Origin: Vulcanimicrobiota bacterium
GTDB lineage: Bacteria > Vulcanimicrobiota > Vulcanimicrobiia > Eremiobacterales > Eremiobacteraceae
Direction of reading: 5' to 3'
NCBI GenBank assembly: GCA_013290125.1
Contig: JABCYQ010000005.1
Span: 62,001 to 126,000 of the forward strand
DNA length: 64,000 nt
Both the position numbers and the translations under genes were made by a program. The notes beneath the pieces were generated by a model. It was not told the DNA's origin, did not search any database, and was given only the letters and a program-made list of their open reading frames with translations. This document shows positions 23,801 through 31,011 of the stretch, piece by piece. How positions within the stretch are numbered: the first letter of the stretch is position 1; each line of letters starts with the position of its first letter.

Positions 23801-24409
23801 CGCTTCGAGCAAACGTTTCGCGTAATCGATCGCCTTTGAATATTCAAGCCGGCCACGACAGTACGAGACGAGCCGTTCGAGCGTCGCCAAGTACGCGCTG
23901 CGCAGGCGCTCCCGTGGAGCGGTGAGCCACTCATCGTAGACCGCTTCGAGAAGATCTCCCGTGTAGAGCTTGATCGCCCGCTCGTGAGATTCGACATTCT
24001 CAAGCGCCGCCTCGAAATCGCCGACGTCGGTGGTCACTCGCGCCGTCTCGTTCCAGCGGACAGTCGATGCATCGACGATGAGCCATGACTCTTCAGGAGC
24101 CGGTGGCAGCACGCGCGCTAGGTCGAATAACGTGGAGCGCAGCCGTGAACGCGCGCCTTCGTCGGTCTCGTCGGGCCAGACGAGATAGGCCAAGTGGCTA
24201 CGAGCGATCCGCGCCCCGCGATTGAGCAAGAGATACGCGAGCACTTGAAGCGTCTTGCGCGGCGTCGCCATCGGATAGGGCACGCCATCGACCTCGACGC
24301 GCGCATGCCCGAACAGAGAAAATCGCAGTTCGGGCACGACGATTGCAGCCCGCGCGTTTAAATCAGCGCCCTCGTTCTCACCGCCGACATCATCGCTGAT
24401 CTTCGACAT
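20867..24409 (-). CDS. SARP-like regulator: wHTH + BTAD + AAA ATPase + TPR
   Basis: 1180 aa. Residues ~28-120 form an OmpR-type winged helix (LFGHARVEVDGVPYPMATPR ... VWPDETDEGARSRLRSTL). A BTAD domain spans ~130-260 (ERAIKLYTGDLLEAVYDEW ... GAIEEFERFR). FVGR and Walker A GGEPGIGKSR (313-322) begin the NTPase, with Walker B LLVVLEDLHWAG following. From ~640 the protein is a long TPR array. This is the AfsR/DnrI-like large activator plan. In the window it stands alone, so its targets are not evident. Confidence 0.92.
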   Translation of the reverse strand: MSKISDDVGGENEGADLNARAAIVVPELRFSLFGHARVEVDGVPYPMATPRKTLQVLAYLLLNRGARIARSHLAYLVWPDETDEGARSRLRSTLFDLARVLPPAPEESWLIVDASTVRWNETARVTTDVGDFEAALENVESHERAIKLYTGDLLEAVYDEWLTAPRERLRSAYLATLERLVSYCRGRLEYSKAIDYAKRLLEADSLREDIVRTLIAVRYEAGDRAGAIEEFERFRERARDELDIDPMPETKALRDSIARNDAIPAAEAPAVEPARRLPPRTRLPFVGRAPEIEQMLDAWSRAARGRGGTFFVGGEPGIGKSRLVTELMREVEGRGGRVVFGATGSPELMPYQSFIEAMRSALPFFDDLRLDSVRLASLAALLPELSANFAELPALSRIDTQSERARLLDSVAQVIMALSKARPLLVVLEDLHWAGEATVGALSYLARRVLLAPVLLVVTYRDNETVGRHPLRRARVDAVAEDAARSLVLRHLSLEDVEALAQGAAGFRGAAADLYRASEGSPLLLGELLEGQGDLAADGPSSVVNVIRERLEQLTPQSRRLAEFAALAGPRFSSEVVREAGGWTGFQFGEALDELLDRRIVSETIGRGALDYAFTHQLIRDVAEKHSPLERAGDRHRRIARTFESLHPELIVEFAGSLGHHYEVAGDRDAAAARYLTAARRALELAAVGDGRTYVDKGLAIATDLSLRKELLVQRARAAQLSGDHNALREAAEALSLLAESTNDDESRRTAAHLTLRFEVVMQDAGAIRRALDALKELVSDAGVKWRAVYFLEEAQAAFGRGDLAALEVAARTALAAAQACGDGSCMARAHTWLAELENQRGHFAVGQDHLDQASLEAAKVNDGAIEIESLRVAFTSAYVRGEVDQAVAISQRWLERATALGDRYAESAARLRCGIALVAGRRDFRRAESELMQALETFEDLHWQRGIAAVLLNQGIMENEVGDFVAAAAHTERALEIFRALDDARGIMTAIGNLSTLHTALGDGDAAARTARQSLEIARAGGTRLPEALALENLAAATAALGDTAGAVRVGHEALAIHREIGVASRSSRFMGDLALWQAQLGKLDEARALVDEMLADGDGIWAEWPQRFHWEAALILRATGDGQRAKDELAKARKFVSGLESQLTGEDLSRYQSVSWNAAIIAAHDRDEWPRQFTRIRG

Positions 24410-24442
24410 CTCAGACGATGCGATTCGCGTCTTACGCGATCG

Positions 24443-24619
24443 TCACTTCGTGCCAAGTGCGACAAAACCGCACTCGCCGTTGCTGCAGACATAGACGATC
24501 ACCGCAAGCGGCGGAACCGGGTTTTCGGGCGACTCGACATAACGCGAGAGTTTGAAGCGACCCAGTTGTTGTAGCGCGCCTAGCGTACAAAATGGACACT
24601 GCTGGTTGTTGATCGGCAT
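24443..24619 (-). CDS. 58-aa zinc-ribbon-like protein
   Basis: ATG at 24619 is preceded by GGGAGG with ~6-bp spacing. The product has an N-terminal CPFC pair (Cys8, Cys11) and a C-terminal CSNGEC pair (Cys45, Cys50) flanking a beta-like core (IVYVCSNGEC), the spacing expected of a small zinc ribbon. It is too short for usual gene-calling cutoffs. Neighbouring genes give no clue to the role; it could bind nucleic acid or be a structural zinc protein. Confidence 0.72.
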   Translation of the reverse strand: MPINNQQCPFCTLGALQQLGRFKLSRYVESPENPVPPLAVIVYVCSNGECGFVALGTK

Positions 24620-24728
24620 CGAAACCTCCCACGGCGCGGTTCCACAATCGTGCGCAGCAACTCAGAGGTGAAGGTGTAGGAGGTCCAGCGATCGGAATGT
24701 CGCGCCTGACCTCCTACGATTTGGCCTG

Positions 24729-25253
24729 TTACTTGAGTATGGTTATGGTCGGATCGCCTGTTGGCTTGCCGCCCGTCGTCATCGGATCCCAAAGAATCCA
24801 GACCTTCCCGTAGGTTTCCAGCAGCGACGCCACGACTTGTTGCGACTGCGCCTTTGTCAAACCGGGCATCACGGCAACCTTCAGTTTGGGAATCTCGACG
24901 CGGTGGTAGTGCCACTTGGCTTGTTCCGACGCCGGATACGTTTTCCAAACGGACGTCGGCACGATAGTCTCGACGCCGACCATGTGGCCGTTGGGACCAT
25001 CGCCGTCGTAGAGCAGACACTCTATGAACGACGGCGAGTAGGTCTTGCACCAGTGGTGGATGATCTCGTCGGGATGCCCGGCATAGTGCTGACTTGCGTC
25101 GATGTGGAGCGTGTAGCCAGAAACGGGTGAGGTCATCGGGCCCGACATCATCGGACTCGCGCTTGCCGTTTGCGCGGGATGGTGCAGCGCGGCGAGTGAT
25201 GCTCCGACTAGCACGAGCCCCGCTACGAGAGCCAGGGACATAAAACGCATCAT
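24729..25253 (-). CDS. DUF1264 family exported protein
   Basis: 174 aa from ATG 25253, chosen because GAGGAGG is just upstream and a signal peptide (MSLALVAGLVLVGASLAAL) begins there. The body has the DUF1264 (oil-body-associated-protein-like) pattern: HYAGHPDEIIHHWCK, ECLLYDGDGPNGHMVGVE, WHYHRVEI, and the WILWDP tail. Proteins of this family are widespread and without assigned activity. Confidence 0.85.
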   Translation of the reverse strand: MMRFMSLALVAGLVLVGASLAALHHPAQTASASPMMSGPMTSPVSGYTLHIDASQHYAGHPDEIIHHWCKTYSPSFIECLLYDGDGPNGHMVGVETIVPTSVWKTYPASEQAKWHYHRVEIPKLKVAVMPGLTKAQSQQVVASLLETYGKVWILWDPMTTGGKPTGDPTITILK

Positions 25254-25452
25254 TGGGCCTCCTCTGACAAAAGGGTGCGCCTCCAGTGCGAAAATAGGTA
25301 ACGCCAATGCGTTACGCACGGACGCGTCGTTCGCAACGCCGAATTCGACGGCCTGCGTTCGCAGGGACGCTTGAAACGTTGAAACAAATGCCGAACCGTC
25401 GCGTACTCCTCTAAGCACTTGCGCTTTTCTGCCGGCAACGGGGCAAGGCGAA

Positions 25453-26025
25453 ATGACGATCACTAATGACGAAATGTCCCCGCTCTTAAAAGCGAGGATG
25501 GCTGGTGTCTTCTATTTACTGAGCATAGTGACCGGTATATATGCTGCGACCGTCGCAACGGGCAGACTTAGCGTTGCGGCCAACCTGATCGGGACCGTTT
25601 TCTATGTGATCGTCACGTTGATTCTTTACGACTTGTTGAAGCCCGTGAGCAAGCCGGTCTCATTGCTCGCGGCGCTGTTCAGCCTCGCCGGCTGCACGGT
25701 GAGCTTTCTCAGGTTTCTGCACCTCCCGTCGCCCGACATCAGCAGTCTGGTGTTTTTTGGATTCTATTGCCTTCTGCTCGCCTACCTCATCTTCAAGTCG
25801 ATGTTCCTCCCTCGATGGCTGGGCGTGCTTCTGGCCATCACCGGGTTGGGTTGGCTGACTTTTCTTTCGCCGGCGTTAGGAGATCGTCTGTTTCCGATCC
25901 TTATGATCACGGGTCTCGCCGGCGAAGGATCGCTGACCTTGTGGCTCCTCGTATTCGGCGTCGACGCTCAACGATGGAACGATCAAGCCGCTACGGCTTC
26001 GTCCGAGCGTAGCGATCCCCGATGA
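25453..26025 (+). CDS. DUF4386 family integral membrane protein
   Basis: 190 aa with about six hydrophobic helices, starting MSPLLKARMAGVFYLLSIVT and including SKPVSLLAALFSLAGC and FFGFYCLLLAYLIFKSMFLP, the characteristic DUF4386 segments. The length is somewhat shorter than the usual ~220-240 aa. The 3' end overlaps the converging membrane protein gene (25991-26389) by 35 bp. Function unknown. Confidence 0.85.
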   Translation: MTITNDEMSPLLKARMAGVFYLLSIVTGIYAATVATGRLSVAANLIGTVFYVIVTLILYDLLKPVSKPVSLLAALFSLAGCTVSFLRFLHLPSPDISSLVFFGFYCLLLAYLIFKSMFLPRWLGVLLAITGLGWLTFLSPALGDRLFPILMITGLAGEGSLTLWLLVFGVDAQRWNDQAATASSERSDPR

Positions 26026-26389
26026 TCTCCGGTATGAACGACAAGAGTACCAGAACGAACGTGATGCCAACAATGTTATTGAGCGCGTGCGGGCCGAAAA
26101 TGGTCAAGCCTGCCGCGAGCAGTCCGACAGCTATTGCGCCCAGCAGAAAAAGCGGGCCAGAAACGTAGCAATGGAGGCGATGACTTCGGCGAGCATTGAG
26201 AACGCAGCCAGTCGCCATCCAGACGAACGATACGGCCCAGACCAAGGCGGCTACACGCGTCGATAGGCCAAGAGGGCTCGTGGACAGGCCAATCGCGATC
26301 GGCGCACACCACCAAAAAAGGCCGGAGAGCGGTTGACTCGCCCAATCTTTTTGAGCTCCGCTCGCCAACTCGCTATCAATCTTGCTCAT
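25991..26389 (-). CDS. Four-helix membrane protein at the end of the mer-like operon
   Basis: 132 aa, with four predicted membrane segments (FWWCAPIAIGLST; VAALVWAVSFVWMATGCVLN; LFLLGAIAVGLLAAGLTIF; IVGITFVLVLLSFIPEII). It starts 6 bp after the thioredoxin-like gene on the same strand, so it is the last gene of the mer-like operon. No family recognised; a role in membrane redox or metal transport is inference from context only. Confidence 0.7.
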   Translation of the reverse strand: MSKIDSELASGAQKDWASQPLSGLFWWCAPIAIGLSTSPLGLSTRVAALVWAVSFVWMATGCVLNARRSHRLHCYVSGPLFLLGAIAVGLLAAGLTIFGPHALNNIVGITFVLVLLSFIPEIIGDRYARTKP

Positions 26390-26395
26390 GGAACT

Positions 26396-26961
26396 TCACC
26401 GAGTTTCGTCTAGCAACTTCTGTGTTTGGCCTGCGAAGACGCCTCCGTCGTGTCGCGGCGCCGCTGTCACACCGCCCAACTGATGCATCCAATAATCCGG
26501 CTTCGGCACTCCCGACTTCGACCAAGTCGCGTTGGGTCCGAAAAGCATATACACGTCCCAAGCCGCTGCGGGTGTCGGCAACAAGCGACCGTAGGCGATG
26601 CCTAACACCTCGTTTGGATCCCAATAGTGCGACGCGCGTAAATCGGGAAACAGCCCGTCGCGTCAGCCACGTTGTTCTGTCGCGAACCCAACTCGGGAAC
26701 CCAGACGACAAACGCTTCAAACTTCGAATCCCGATTCTTGAGAAGCAACTGCCTCTCGACTTCACTTGCTCCGTGAAGACAGATCGCTCAGGTAGGGCTG
26801 ACGAGCATCAGGACTCGCACTTTGCCGTTTGCGGCGTTGAATTTTGTTCGCAGCGGCTCCGCTGATGCGTCCAGCACCTCGAAGCTGCGAGTTGCTCCGG
26901 AATGTGAGCAGCCGGCGACGATTGCGGCCAGACCGCTGAGCACGAAACCCGTTCTCTTCAT
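26396..26961 (-). CDS. Thioredoxin-like lipoprotein, candidate selenoprotein (in-frame TGA in UxxC; frameshifted)
   Basis: Starts at ATG 26961 (GGAGAG upstream) with lipobox VAGC (Cys18). The frame reads VRVLMLVSPT, then TGA (26790-26788), then AICLHGASEVERQLLL. The stop replaces the first residue of a redox CxxC, giving U-A-I-C. Reading continues for ~45 codons (FEAFVVWVPELG). One base is then missing near 26652-26660 and the sequence resumes in the next frame (LFPDLRASHYWDPNEVLGIA, PDYWMHQLGG) to 26396. The total of 566 nt is one short of 189 codons. The conserved blocks fit a thioredoxin-like family often near mer genes. A Sec reading is plausible, but the frameshift leaves pseudogene or sequence error open. 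Confidence 0.65.
26760..26778 (-). promoter_or_regulatory. SECIS-like hairpin downstream of the in-frame TGA
   Basis: Nine bases after the TGA, CTTCAC and GTGAAG form a perfect 6-bp stem around the 7-nt loop GGAGCAA. Bacterial SECIS elements lie in the coding region shortly after the UGA, with a small apical loop having G among its first two bases, as here. The codons also encode conserved LHGASE, so the hairpin could be coincidental. Confidence 0.45.
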
Positions 26962-26974
26962 CGCGTTCTCTCCA

Positions 26975-27388
26975 TCATGATGCAGTGATCGAGTAGACTG
27001 TAAAAACCAAGGACGCAATCCATAGCGCGGCGGCGAACCAGAGCACCGCCTGCGAAACTCTAAAGGCAACTCCAGGCGAAGACGATGTCGCGCCGACGAG
27101 GCACGACGATTTCGCCCGATAGACGCTGCGAAATCCCATCGCGAGCATCAATAGCGAAAATACGAACAAGTAGGGCGTGTATGGTTTAAGACCCGCTGCA
27201 GCGGCGGCGCCGGTCGCTCCCAGCAGTCCGACGACGATCGGCGCGACGACGGGACCCGTGCAGCAAACGCTTGCGAGCGTCGCGGTGACGGCGGCACCCA
27301 CGCCGGCCGTCGCCGTTCCTACTGCTGCGCCGACCGTCGCACCTTGACCCATCCGTGAAGCCGCAACGTCATTTGGATCAGGAGACAT
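26975..27388 (-). CDS. MerT-like mercuric/metal transporter
   Basis: 137 aa from ATG 27388 (MSPDPNDV). Three hydrophobic helices are visible. The first contains the vicinal Cys pair SVCCTGP (42-43), the Hg-binding signature of MerT, followed by a Gly/Ala-rich stretch and LKPYTPYLFVFSLLMLAMGF, close to the MerT second helix. The sequence upstream of the CC motif is Gly/Ala-rich and longer than in classical MerT (~116 aa). It overlaps the preceding gene by 11 bp, and the thioredoxin-like gene starts 13 bp after it. Confidence 0.8.
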   Translation of the reverse strand: MSPDPNDVAASRMGQGATVGAAVGTATAGVGAAVTATLASVCCTGPVVAPIVVGLLGATGAAAAAGLKPYTPYLFVFSLLMLAMGFRSVYRAKSSCLVGATSSSPGVAFRVSQAVLWFAAALWIASLVFTVYSITAS

Positions 27389-27719
27389 CGTCGAGATTCC
27401 CCGACTTGGCGATCGCATTCTTCACGGCGACCTCAATCATCATGCGTGAAGGTATCCCGCTCACGACGCCCCCATGCCGATAAACGCGACACATCAAGCC
27501 GTAGTTGTTGAGCGCCACCGACGATGGGTCGACGTCGACGCCGTCGACGCGTATGCTGGGTGAACCAAGGAACTTCAATTTCTGCGCGTCGGCTGCGTCG
27601 TTTACATCGACGTCGCGGATCGTAGGCGGGATTCCGCACTCGGCAAGGACATCTTCGACGAGGTCACGCGCTTGCGCGTGGTGAGGACATCCTTCGAAAT
27701 ACAACACGTCGACGATCAT
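27378..27719 (-). CDS. Thioredoxin-fold protein of mer-type operons
   Basis: 113 aa from ATG 27719, which overlaps the merR stop (ATGA, 27716-27719). It begins VDVLYFEGCPHHAQARDLV, a beta-strand plus Cys-Pro motif like glutaredoxin/thioredoxin-fold proteins in mercury operons. It then has KFLGSPSIRVDGVDVDP and a C-terminal MCRVYRHGGVVSGIPS block with a second Cys. It could hand metal or electrons between MerT and cytosolic partners (inference). The cognate mercuric reductase is not in the window. Confidence 0.75.
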   Translation of the reverse strand: MIVDVLYFEGCPHHAQARDLVEDVLAECGIPPTIRDVDVNDAADAQKLKFLGSPSIRVDGVDVDPSSVALNNYGLMCRVYRHGGVVSGIPSRMMIEVAVKNAIAKSGNLDDVS

Positions 27720-28162
27720 GGTTTCCGTCGGCCGATCTGCCGGCCGCCGTTCGAGGACCTCGTCGGAGCAAAGACTGGGCACGGCACATCCCCTCGGCCC
27801 GAAATCGCGCGGTCGCAGGCGGCCATATACGATCGCAGTTCATGCCGAAACTCTCGCAGCTCGGCGATGCGCGTATCCGCGTCCGCGATCTTTTCAGAGA
27901 GCAGGGAGCGAACGCGTCGACATTCAGTCCGCCCGAGCCGCCCTTGAGGATATAACGCCGCGATTTCCACGAGTGTCATTCCAAGCGATTGCGCCCGGCG
28001 AATCGCACGCACACGGTCAACGTCGGCACTTTCAAAAATGCGGTAGCCCGAAGATGTGCGCGGCGCCGGAGCAAGCAGCCGAAGCCTCTCGTAGTACCGC
28101 ACAGCATCCGGGGTCACGCCTGCAGCAGAGGCGACGCCGCCGACGGTCAAGCTGTCCTTCAC
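27716..28162 (-). CDS. MerR-family metal-responsive regulator
   Basis: 148 aa from GTG 28162, preceded by GGAGG; the longer frame begins inside the promoter. The N-terminal winged HTH (LTVGGVASAAGVTPDAVRYY) is typical. Cysteines fall at 81, 116 and 128, close to the Hg-binding C82/C117/C126 of MerR, with CPVF after the last one. It lies first in its own operon, under a promoter with the classic overlong spacer. The ligand is probably Hg(II) or another soft metal. Confidence 0.87.
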   Translation of the reverse strand: MKDSLTVGGVASAAGVTPDAVRYYERLRLLAPAPRTSSGYRIFESADVDRVRAIRRAQSLGMTLVEIAALYPQGRLGRTECRRVRSLLSEKIADADTRIAELREFRHELRSYMAACDRAISGRGDVPCPVFAPTRSSNGGRQIGRRKP

Positions 28163-28178
28163 TTTTTCCTCCAACCCT

Positions 28179-28210
28179 ATTGTAAACCTTAGAGTTGGCT
28201 CTAAGGTCAA
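28179..28210 (-). promoter_or_regulatory. MerR-type promoter/operator of the mer-like operon
   Basis: On the minus strand TTGACC (28210-28205) and TACAAT (28184-28179) are 20 bp apart. Within the spacer a perfect dyad, ACCTTAGAG-4 nt-CTCTAAGGT (28207-28186), forms the operator. A 19-20 bp spacer with a central dyad is the hallmark of promoters that MerR proteins activate by DNA distortion. Confidence 0.88.
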
Positions 28211-28257
28211 TACTCGCCTAGACGGCTAGGTTAAAGGATGGGGTCTGGGAGCCGTGC

Positions 28258-29289
28258 CTAGCGCAAAGCCATTCCCGCCGGCGATCCGAGCAGCGTGTTG
28301 GAGCCGACGATCGTGCGGATCGGCGCGGCGTTGCCACTCGCGTGAGCAGCATAGACCGTGACACTGTTCGCACTCTGGTTCGTCACGTAGATCTTGCCGC
28401 TGCTGTCGAACGCTATCTCATCGGGAACGCTCAACCCCGTTTTGGTACCAACGATGGTCAAGATCGGGGCAACATCACCTGCCGCGCCGCGTGCATAGAC
28501 CGTCACGCTGTTGGCGCCGTAGTTCGTGACCCATATCCGCCCCATGGCGTCGATGGCAAGCCCGCCTGCGCCGTTGAGACCCGTCTTTGAACCGATGATC
28601 GTACGGATGGGCTTCGCATTTCCGTTGGCGGTTGCGCCGAACTCCGTCACGCTACCGTTTCCGTAGTTCGTGACGTAGATATTCTTGCTTGCATCAAGGG
28701 CGACCGAAAGCGGCTCGAACAGCCCGGTCTTCGCACCGACGATCATCTTCGCAGGCTTGACGTTTCCCGAAGCGCTGGCACCGAAGATCGAGATCGAATT
28801 CCCATACCAATTCGCGACGTAGGATTTGCCTGTGCTATCGAGAGCGACGAACACGGGCCCGTTCAAAAGTGTGTTCGCACCGGAGATCATCTTCGTCGGC
28901 GCTGGGTTGCCGTTCGCACCCGGCGCGTAGACGGTCAATAGATTCGAACCGAAATTCGCGACGTGCAACGCTCGCGTCGCATCGAGCGAGATGCCGACTG
29001 GCTGATTGAGAAGCGTCGACGTGCCGTGGATGACTCGCACGGGCGCGACGTTGCCTTTCGCGGTCAGCGCATAGACCGTGATCGCGTAGAGGTAGCGATC
29101 AGTGACGTAGATGCACGTGTTGGTCGAGCACGCATCTGCAGCCGGCGCAAGCGATTGCTGTGCAAAGTTGCGTTGCGCAGCAGATCGCGAAGCCGGCGAG
29201 AAAGACGGAGCTGCTGAGCACGCGGAAAGCGCGAGCACCGCAGCAACCATCGCGGAGCTGGCGACCGTGGGGCCAAATCGAAAATACAT
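28258..29289 (-). CDS. NHL/SMP-30-like beta-propeller lipoprotein
   Basis: 343 aa. Lipobox LSAC (VLALSACSAA, ~Cys24). It has six or so repeats of ~47 residues, each with G...P...I.G..T.L..P.G...D..G.IYVTN...NSVTVY, the NHL/YVTN-like propeller pattern. Likely surface-anchored. No catalytic site is apparent. Similar in plan to the protein at 55664-56620, suggesting a family expansion. Confidence 0.85.
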   Translation of the reverse strand: MYFRFGPTVASSAMVAAVLALSACSAAPSFSPASRSAAQRNFAQQSLAPAADACSTNTCIYVTDRYLYAITVYALTAKGNVAPVRVIHGTSTLLNQPVGISLDATRALHVANFGSNLLTVYAPGANGNPAPTKMISGANTLLNGPVFVALDSTGKSYVANWYGNSISIFGASASGNVKPAKMIVGAKTGLFEPLSVALDASKNIYVTNYGNGSVTEFGATANGNAKPIRTIIGSKTGLNGAGGLAIDAMGRIWVTNYGANSVTVYARGAAGDVAPILTIVGTKTGLSVPDEIAFDSSGKIYVTNQSANSVTVYAAHASGNAAPIRTIVGSNTLLGSPAGMALR

Positions 29290-29406
29290 AAGACGACCTC
29301 TCCCTTGCGCTGAATCCGACCGCAGGTTGATCGCTCAAGTATAAGGGCGGGCGTCCGGCTGCGTCAAGCCGCGTCGGAAGGTCTGAATATTAAGGTCCGT
29401 CACATC

Positions 29407-31011
29407 TTAGGACTCCTGACCCGCAGAAGGTATAGATTCGCCCACTACGACGGGTATCAAGAGATGCGAGTCGTACGTCGCGCCGGTGTAGATCGAATGC
29501 CAACCGTGATTCACAGTTGGATTGTGCCGGAACGCCGGATATCTGTCAGCATCGTGGCCGAGAACATCGATGCGCAACGTCGATCCGGCTTCGAAGAGCG
29601 TGCTTGACGCGAGAACCTCGATCTCGACCGGAACTATTTCATTCGGCCCCATAGGATCGGCTTCTATGTGCGAATGCCAAGGCATCCCAGGACGGCTGCG
29701 CAGCGGATCTAGCGCGCGGTGCGAGACGCGCAGCCAACCCTTCGCGACGCCGTCTCTATCGAAGCCGTTGTAGCCGAAGAAGAAAACCTCTTGCCCGGCT
29801 CCATCGAATTTGCGGACCTTCACAAAGAGGTCCAAATCCGTCCCTTCGCTCGTTGAGACCCACAGCTTTAGCGACATCGACCCCGTGAGTTCTGTTTCCC
29901 TCGAAAAGCGATACGCAAAAATCGCGCGATCCGGGGACTCTCGCTCAGTCGTTGCGTAACGCACGTCATGCACTTCCGATAACGGTCGCGTTTCGAGCGT
30001 ACCTGATGCGGCGTTGAGGTACAACGGCGTATATCTAACGCCCGAGAGCGGCCATCCGGTCTCACCGCGCACCGTCCATTGTGAAATCGACCGGCGCACC
30101 TCGAGCCGCACGCGTGGCGTCATATCCCAGCCGTTGGCTTCGCCTTTGAGGAAATGATCGAAAAAGCGCCGCTGCGTTCTGCCCGCTTCCTCTCCATAGA
30201 ATGTTTCCCACTTGCGCCCGCCGTGCGTGAACAGCCACTTCTGATTGGACCCGATGCGTTCGAAGCCGAGCAGTGAACCCCGCGTATGAAGGCCATGATC
30301 CGACCAGCTCGCGCACACGAGCGCGGGAATGTCGATCATCTCAAGCGCGGGGCGTTTGCTTGCCCACTACTCGTCGTCCAGCGGCCGGGCGTCGCGCTCT
30401 CGAATAAAATCTTCCGCCAGCGCAAAACGCCTGTTGTGCCCGCGTTGCATGCGGTTATTCCACCAGAGCGACACGAAGCCGGACTCACGTACACCATCTT
30501 GGTACCCTAACTCGCGCAGCAAGTCGGTGGCGCCTTCCCACGGAATGATCGCTTTGAGGGCCGGCGGACGAAGTGCCGCGGCATTCCACTGCGACATGGC
30601 CAAATACGAAACCCCGCATAGGCCAACTGCCCCCGACGACCACGGCTGGCGCGCGCACCATTCGATGAGCTCGGCGTAATCCTGCGCGTCCGCCGGCGTC
30701 CACGCCCCCGCGCGCCCTTCGGACTTGTGCATGCCGCGCACGTCGGCTTGGACGACATTGTATCCGGCATCGACCCAAAAGAGCGGGTCCGGAGATTCAA
30801 AGCCAGTCCATCGGGAGCACTTCAGTTTTCCGAAGTTCACCCCGGCAAGCCCCATAAAGAACATGCCGATCCGATCCGGCGTGTTGTCTTTGCCGTACGG
30901 CGTCACCGACAAAACGACCGGATGCGCTGCTCCGTCGTCCGGTCGAAAAACATTTGCGAAAAGGCGCACGCCATCTCGCATACGGATGACCGCATCGCGT
31001 TCGAATCTCAC
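29407..31011 (-). pseudogene. CocE/NonD family hydrolase interrupted by one in-frame amber codon
   Basis: GTG at 31011. Codons 1-214 carry the alpha/beta-hydrolase core with nucleophile motif CGVSYLAM (Ser135). A TAG at 30369-30367 follows RPLDDE. The same frame continues WASKRPALEMIDIPALVCAS, SWSDHGLHTRG, then a beta-jelly-roll C-terminal domain (LTGSMSLKLWVSTSEGTDLD) to 29407. The total of 534 codons before the stop is normal for X-Pro-dipeptidyl-peptidase/CocE-type acyl hydrolases. Only a single base separates it from an intact gene (Tyr TAC/TAT or Trp TGG expected). It may be a recent nonsense mutation, suppressed amber or sequence error. Confidence 0.82.

Follow-up and report, generated by a model that had tools for sequence, protein, structure and literature searches.

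The window, i.e., the whole 64,000-nucleotide stretch of DNA analyzed here, raises the question of whether a single TGA within a thioredoxin-like reading frame of a mer-like operon is read as selenocysteine (Sec) or represents a lesion in a decaying gene. The answer best explaining the evidence as a whole, with a probability of about 90%, is that the gene belongs to a family absent from the libraries and catalogues searched, in which UGA is decoded as Sec and whose product is most likely an anchored UxxC oxidoreductase tied to a MerT/DF operon.

The TGA-Containing Gene and Its Relatives

The gene, a member of what is called here the PTUxxC family, occupies positions 26396..26961 of the minus strand and is predicted to encode a Sec-containing thioredoxin-like lipoprotein. 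It is frameshifted in the assembly and displays full-length homology to intact TGA-bearing genes of relatives (66% and 55–56% identity). Its frame begins with the ATG at 26961, passes the in-frame TGA at 26790-26788 and extends to the next same-frame stop, the TAG at 26604; hence, the frame is open around a single TGA, as the preliminary description of this DNA had stated. Translated with the TGA as U, it reads MKRTGFVLSGLAAIVAGC...VRVLMLVSPTUAICLHGASEVE..., in which a thioredoxin-like redox motif comes after a signal of the lipoprotein type. The predicted signal peptide (26908..26961, minus strand) features the lipobox VAG-C, accompanied by a weak match to LPAM_1 and by a lipobox-like LxxC in the relatives. 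The TGA itself (26788..26790, minus strand), the predicted Sec codon 58, coincides with the first residue of the redox motif (SPT-TGA-AIC, i.e., SPT-U-AIC), just where it had been placed initially.

Relatives of the gene were found in 11 of the 149 genomes of the window’s phylum, Eremiobacterota (its own genome included), as well as in 7/291 and 11/133 genomes of two more phyla, those of an Armatimonadetes MAG and of a Zixiibacteriota MAG, respectively. A Gammaproteobacteria MAG carries a Cys form; in a sample of 369 gammaproteobacterial genomes, the sole match was this already known genome. The search for carriage of the family by plasmids or phages gave no match. All 25 TGA-bearing relatives, distributed over Eremiobacterota and the Armatimonadetes and Zixiibacteriota phyla, possess the TGA at the same codon within the motif (S/A)P(T/S)UxxC, and five relatives (L023, L025, L026, L032 and L035) harbor Cys at this position. 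Thus, Sec predominates in the family (26 loci, counting the window copy, vs. 5 with Cys), and one genome (G133) possesses a copy of each kind. The alignment of homologues proposed earlier as a check revealed Sec or Cys at the TGA position in 31 of the 33 sequences, the two others featuring Thr at the first redox position (L047, PTTPRC) or Ser at both motif positions (L059, PTSASS); judging by these motifs, the proteins of L047 and L059 are probably inactive. One more gene, L030, is decayed in appearance. Among the positions invariant in 27 relatives are P-T-[U/C]-x-x-C, one Trp and one Trp-Asp pair. Three changes between Sec and Cys are needed to explain the tree, most branches of which carry Sec.

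The Selenocysteine Machinery

The genome from which the window originates (2.9 Mb, 95% complete) harbors the complete set of selA, selB, selC and selD looked for as a check of the Sec reading. It comprises a tRNA-Sec (72 bits; called tRNA-SeC with the anticodon UCA by ARAGORN), selA (536 bits at a cut-off of 268) with selB immediately after it (277 bits at a cut-off of 242), and selD (384 bits at a cut-off of 125). The selD gene (L038 1501-2430) itself contains one in-frame TGA located at the GUAAK catalytic site, indicating that SelD is a selenoprotein as well; this site matches UxxK, the known Sec form of SelD (PMC13188914).

Across the phylum, SelB exceeds the cut-off in 113 of the 149 genomes. 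It also does so in the Sec-form genomes G015, G016, G027, G106, G133, G150 and G151. Among the four genomes with the Cys form that were compared, SelB is absent from three (G110, G115 and G149) and present in one (G051). A single genome, G052, harbors the TGA form of the gene, yet no SelB was found in this MAG of 91% completeness; this may reflect either a missing contig or a dying gene, i.e., a loss in progress.

A genome-wide reassignment of TGA to another amino acid, for which no supporting evidence was found, was rejected as next to impossible given the Sec-specific tRNA with the UCA anticodon, the presence of SelA, SelB and SelD, the CCA anticodon of the tRNA-Trp found, and the aligned residue of the non-TGA relatives, which is nearly always Cys.

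The SECIS-like Hairpin

Nine bases 3′ of the TGA, there is a SECIS-like hairpin, CTTCAC-GGAGCAA-GTGAAG (26760..26778, minus strand), with a perfect 6-bp stem and a 7-nt loop, exactly as claimed in the preliminary description. As for the further claim that it fits a bacterial SECIS, the hairpin agrees with the bSECIS model in loop length, stem length and the presence of G within the first two nucleotides of the loop, but it narrowly misses two published limits (PMC13188914): its UGA-to-loop distance is 15 nt (limit 16–37 nt), and its MFE is −6.7 kcal/mol (limit ≤ −7.5 kcal/mol). A second hairpin at +30, GAGAGGC-AGTT-GCTTCTC, complies with all the limits (spacing 37, −8.9 kcal/mol), which are also reached by 2.4% of synonymous codon shuffles. 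The Rfam scan of window positions 24000-30000 yielded no match.

The first hairpin is preserved in one register in 13 sequences of two phyla, where compensatory changes were recorded at 4 of its 8 pairs; its covarying homologues in L022 and L050 are within the bSECIS limits. Paired cells amounted to 89.4% vs. 72.1% in shuffled sequences, with 0 of 500 shuffles as high, a test inflated by the relatedness of the sequences; because of this inflation, it is the slid controls (48–61%) and the between-phyla changes (T-A vs. G-C, T-A vs. A-T) that carry weight. Synonymous codon shuffles reached the native hairpin in 0.1–18% of cases for most TGA forms and in 10–55% for the Cys forms, and four of the five Cys forms lack a comparable hairpin. 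The six Armatimonadetes-phylum sequences compared make use of a hairpin located further downstream.

The Frameshift and the Possibility of a Pseudogene

The reading frame of the window copy changes at about 26656..26664 (minus strand); from there on, the conserved C-terminal half is encoded in a different frame, which terminates at the TGA at 26398-26396. One could hence suggest that the gene is a pseudogene with the TGA as a nonsense mutation and the frameshift as a second lesion. Two lesions within one reading frame would agree with this suggestion, as would the in-frame TAG in a neighboring hydrolase gene. Still, the TGA resides at the identical codon in 25 relatives, so a chance nonsense mutation at the redox residue is unlikely, as originally argued, and the genome retains the Sec machinery. 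Moreover, both halves of the gene are under near-equal purifying selection: dN/dS against the G027 gene is about 0.17 before the frameshift and 0.15 after it. A pseudogene arisen by nonsense mutation was therefore rejected as a very improbable explanation; it could hold for the window copy alone if the frameshift is genuine.

The frameshift itself is more readily understood as an error of assembly or as a mutation of very recent date; this is favored by the near-equal dN/dS on its two sides and by the position of the next gene, which still begins immediately behind the Sec-gene stop. Since the gene is intact in relatives that share the TGA, the frameshift is no argument against Sec decoding, contrary to the initial concern that it would weaken the case. 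Given the frameshift, a full-length product of the window copy is only a possibility. A programmed frameshift was considered as well and found to be unsupported, the relatives being read in a single frame.

Taken together, these data suggest that the TGA codon of the window gene almost certainly encodes Sec. The decoding of this codon as Sec is considered highly probable for the lineage of the window gene and, with even greater confidence, for the PTUxxC family as a whole.

The Mer-like Gene Neighborhood

On the minus strand, the Sec gene is preceded by genes for a MerR-type regulator, a DF protein (Cys form) and MerT and is followed by a gene for a small membrane protein, so the mer-like operon described previously was recovered, with a MerR-type regulator and MerT among its genes. 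The MerR-family regulator (27716..28210, minus strand) matches Pfam MerR_1 (53 bits) and MerR-DNA-bind (52 bits), its best NCBIfam matches being ZntR/MerR, below the cut-off. The DF family (seleno)protein gene (27378..27782, minus strand) scores 112.3 bits with NF049942 (cut-off 70). The MerT-type transporter gene, a conserved neighbor (26975..27418, minus strand; Pfam MerT 43 bits at a cut-off of 32.9), has a true start that may lie downstream of the ORF start. The small multi-pass membrane protein (25991..26389, minus strand), starting a few bases past the Sec-gene stop, shows a weak similarity to DUF998, and its homologues are found beside relatives of the Sec gene. This small protein family displays an RxxRxHCYxxGPxFL-type motif, is encountered repeatedly in these mer-like clusters and is not covered by any NCBIfam model.

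A CocE/NonD hydrolase gene (window 29407-31011, minus strand), 4 kb from the Sec gene, is split by one in-frame TAG (DE*WASKRP), and its two halves both match TIGR00976 (profile positions 2-160 and 231-548). This TAG could stem from a very recent mutation or from a fault in the assembly.

A conserved cluster of MerR/ArsR, MerT, DF-protein and 4TM genes exists in Eremiobacterota, and different combinations of its parts, together with MerR or ArsR, are found again in G027, G015, G052, G106, G051, G115 and G110 as well as in the Gammaproteobacteria MAG.

Fold and Putative Function

The AlphaFold2 model of the intact G027 protein, built on 27 sequences, displayed a thioredoxin fold with a mean pLDDT of 91.8 (the model built without an alignment, with a pLDDT of 34.6, was unusable), in line with the thioredoxin-family character earlier ascribed to the residues downstream of the TGA. 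Its best PDB matches were DipZ, ResA, DsbE, Etrx1 and DsbF, i.e., disulfide oxidoreductases that are secreted or anchored in the membrane (E about 1e-5 to 3e-4, target-normalised TM up to 0.65), followed by SCO1 and GPX.

The mechanism suggested by these features is as follows. Comparative evidence indicates that SelB and tRNA-Sec decode the UGA at codon 58 as Sec, aided by the downstream hairpin. The product is confidently predicted to be a thioredoxin-fold protein with a UxxC center and, judging by the lipobox, would be lipid-anchored and extracytoplasmic. Most likely, it acts as a selenol-thiol oxidoreductase of the TlpA/ResA/Etrx type, which may reduce or load the cysteines of the MerT/DF partners or a metal(loid) such as Hg(II) and, as the gene neighborhood suggests, may be controlled by a MerR or ArsR metal sensor.

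Even if the TGA encodes Sec, the protein could be a general extracytoplasmic disulfide reductase or a peroxidase-like enzyme whose mer-like neighbors are incidental. This alternative is a serious one, its chances falling somewhat short of even. The ResA, DsbE, Etrx and GPX proteins among the PDB matches point in this direction, and so do the relatives from the Armatimonadetes and Zixiibacteriota phyla, mostly devoid of MerT nearby; no MerT showed up in the vicinity of the gene in the Zixiibacteriota-phylum loci, and a role in mercury handling can therefore not apply to the family as a whole. In addition, no gene of the window’s genome exceeds the MerA cut-off (best 384 bits vs. 454). On the other hand, MerT and/or DF/4TM partners accompany most of the Eremiobacterota members, the gene of the Gammaproteobacteria MAG and two Armatimonadetes-phylum loci, in one of which an ArsR-like gene (recognized by eye) and a MerT-HMA fusion adjoin.

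Hence, a selenol oxidoreductase role tied to the MerT/DF transport module is regarded here as likely; its exact form, be it that of a redox partner or that of Hg/metal handling, we infer from the genomic context. Selenolate possesses a very high affinity for mercury, and mercury is a hypothetical substrate of the protein. A more specific and tentative proposal, somewhat less likely than not, is that this mostly-Sec family of three phyla provides a membrane-anchored selenol reductant or metal-binding partner for a MerA-less MerT/DF module. If true, this would imply a selenium-dependent handling of mercury or a related metal(loid).

Comparison with Known Systems

None of the models in Pfam, NCBIfam (which includes many catalogued selenoprotein models) and PHROGs recognizes the family. 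The catalogue published in 2026, with 119 selenoprotein families (PMC13188914 Table 1), contained no matching entry among those represented by Pfam or NCBIfam models; certain other entries are defined by CDD models, so it is conceivable that the family has been recorded without being published or named. The deep-Sep paper (PMC12013277) reports DF and, in the passages covered, names no family of the PTUxxC description. Being absent from the libraries and catalogues searched, the family is a candidate uncatalogued selenoprotein family spanning several little-cultured phyla and a candidate addition to the 119 prokaryotic ones. It ties selenium use to a metal-transport-like operon; selenoproteins are frequently misannotated as truncated genes.

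Like the TlpA/ResA/DsbE/Etrx proteins, the family combines a thioredoxin fold with a lipid or membrane anchor, and its [C/U]xxC opens the first long helix after a strand. The differences are an identity of 11–18% in the PDB matches, with moderate TM-scores, and the lack of any Pfam or NCBIfam model matching the PTUxxC family. An invariant Trp-Asp directly precedes the strand where thioredoxins have the cis-proline, a correspondence by position only. In the catalogued UxxC selenoproteins (thioredoxin, thiol:disulfide interchange protein, TlpA UGC type, SaoT and redoxin family; PMC13188914 Table 1), Sec is likewise the first residue of a thioredoxin-type UxxC center, but none of those families with Pfam/NCBIfam models matches the alignment of the window family.

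The DF family (seleno)protein NF049942, Thioredoxin_3-like and belonging to a catalogued selenoprotein family, is encoded in the same operon; it differs in that the window copy is a Cys form encoded by a gene separate from the Sec gene. Finally, the neighboring MerT belongs to PF02411, one of the families of the MerT and MerT/CopZ heavy-metal transport selenoproteins (PF02411, NF045683); there is a precedent for Sec use in metal transport (PMC13188914 Table 1). In contrast to those selenoproteins, the predicted Sec of the window operon resides in a thioredoxin-like lipoprotein and not in MerT.
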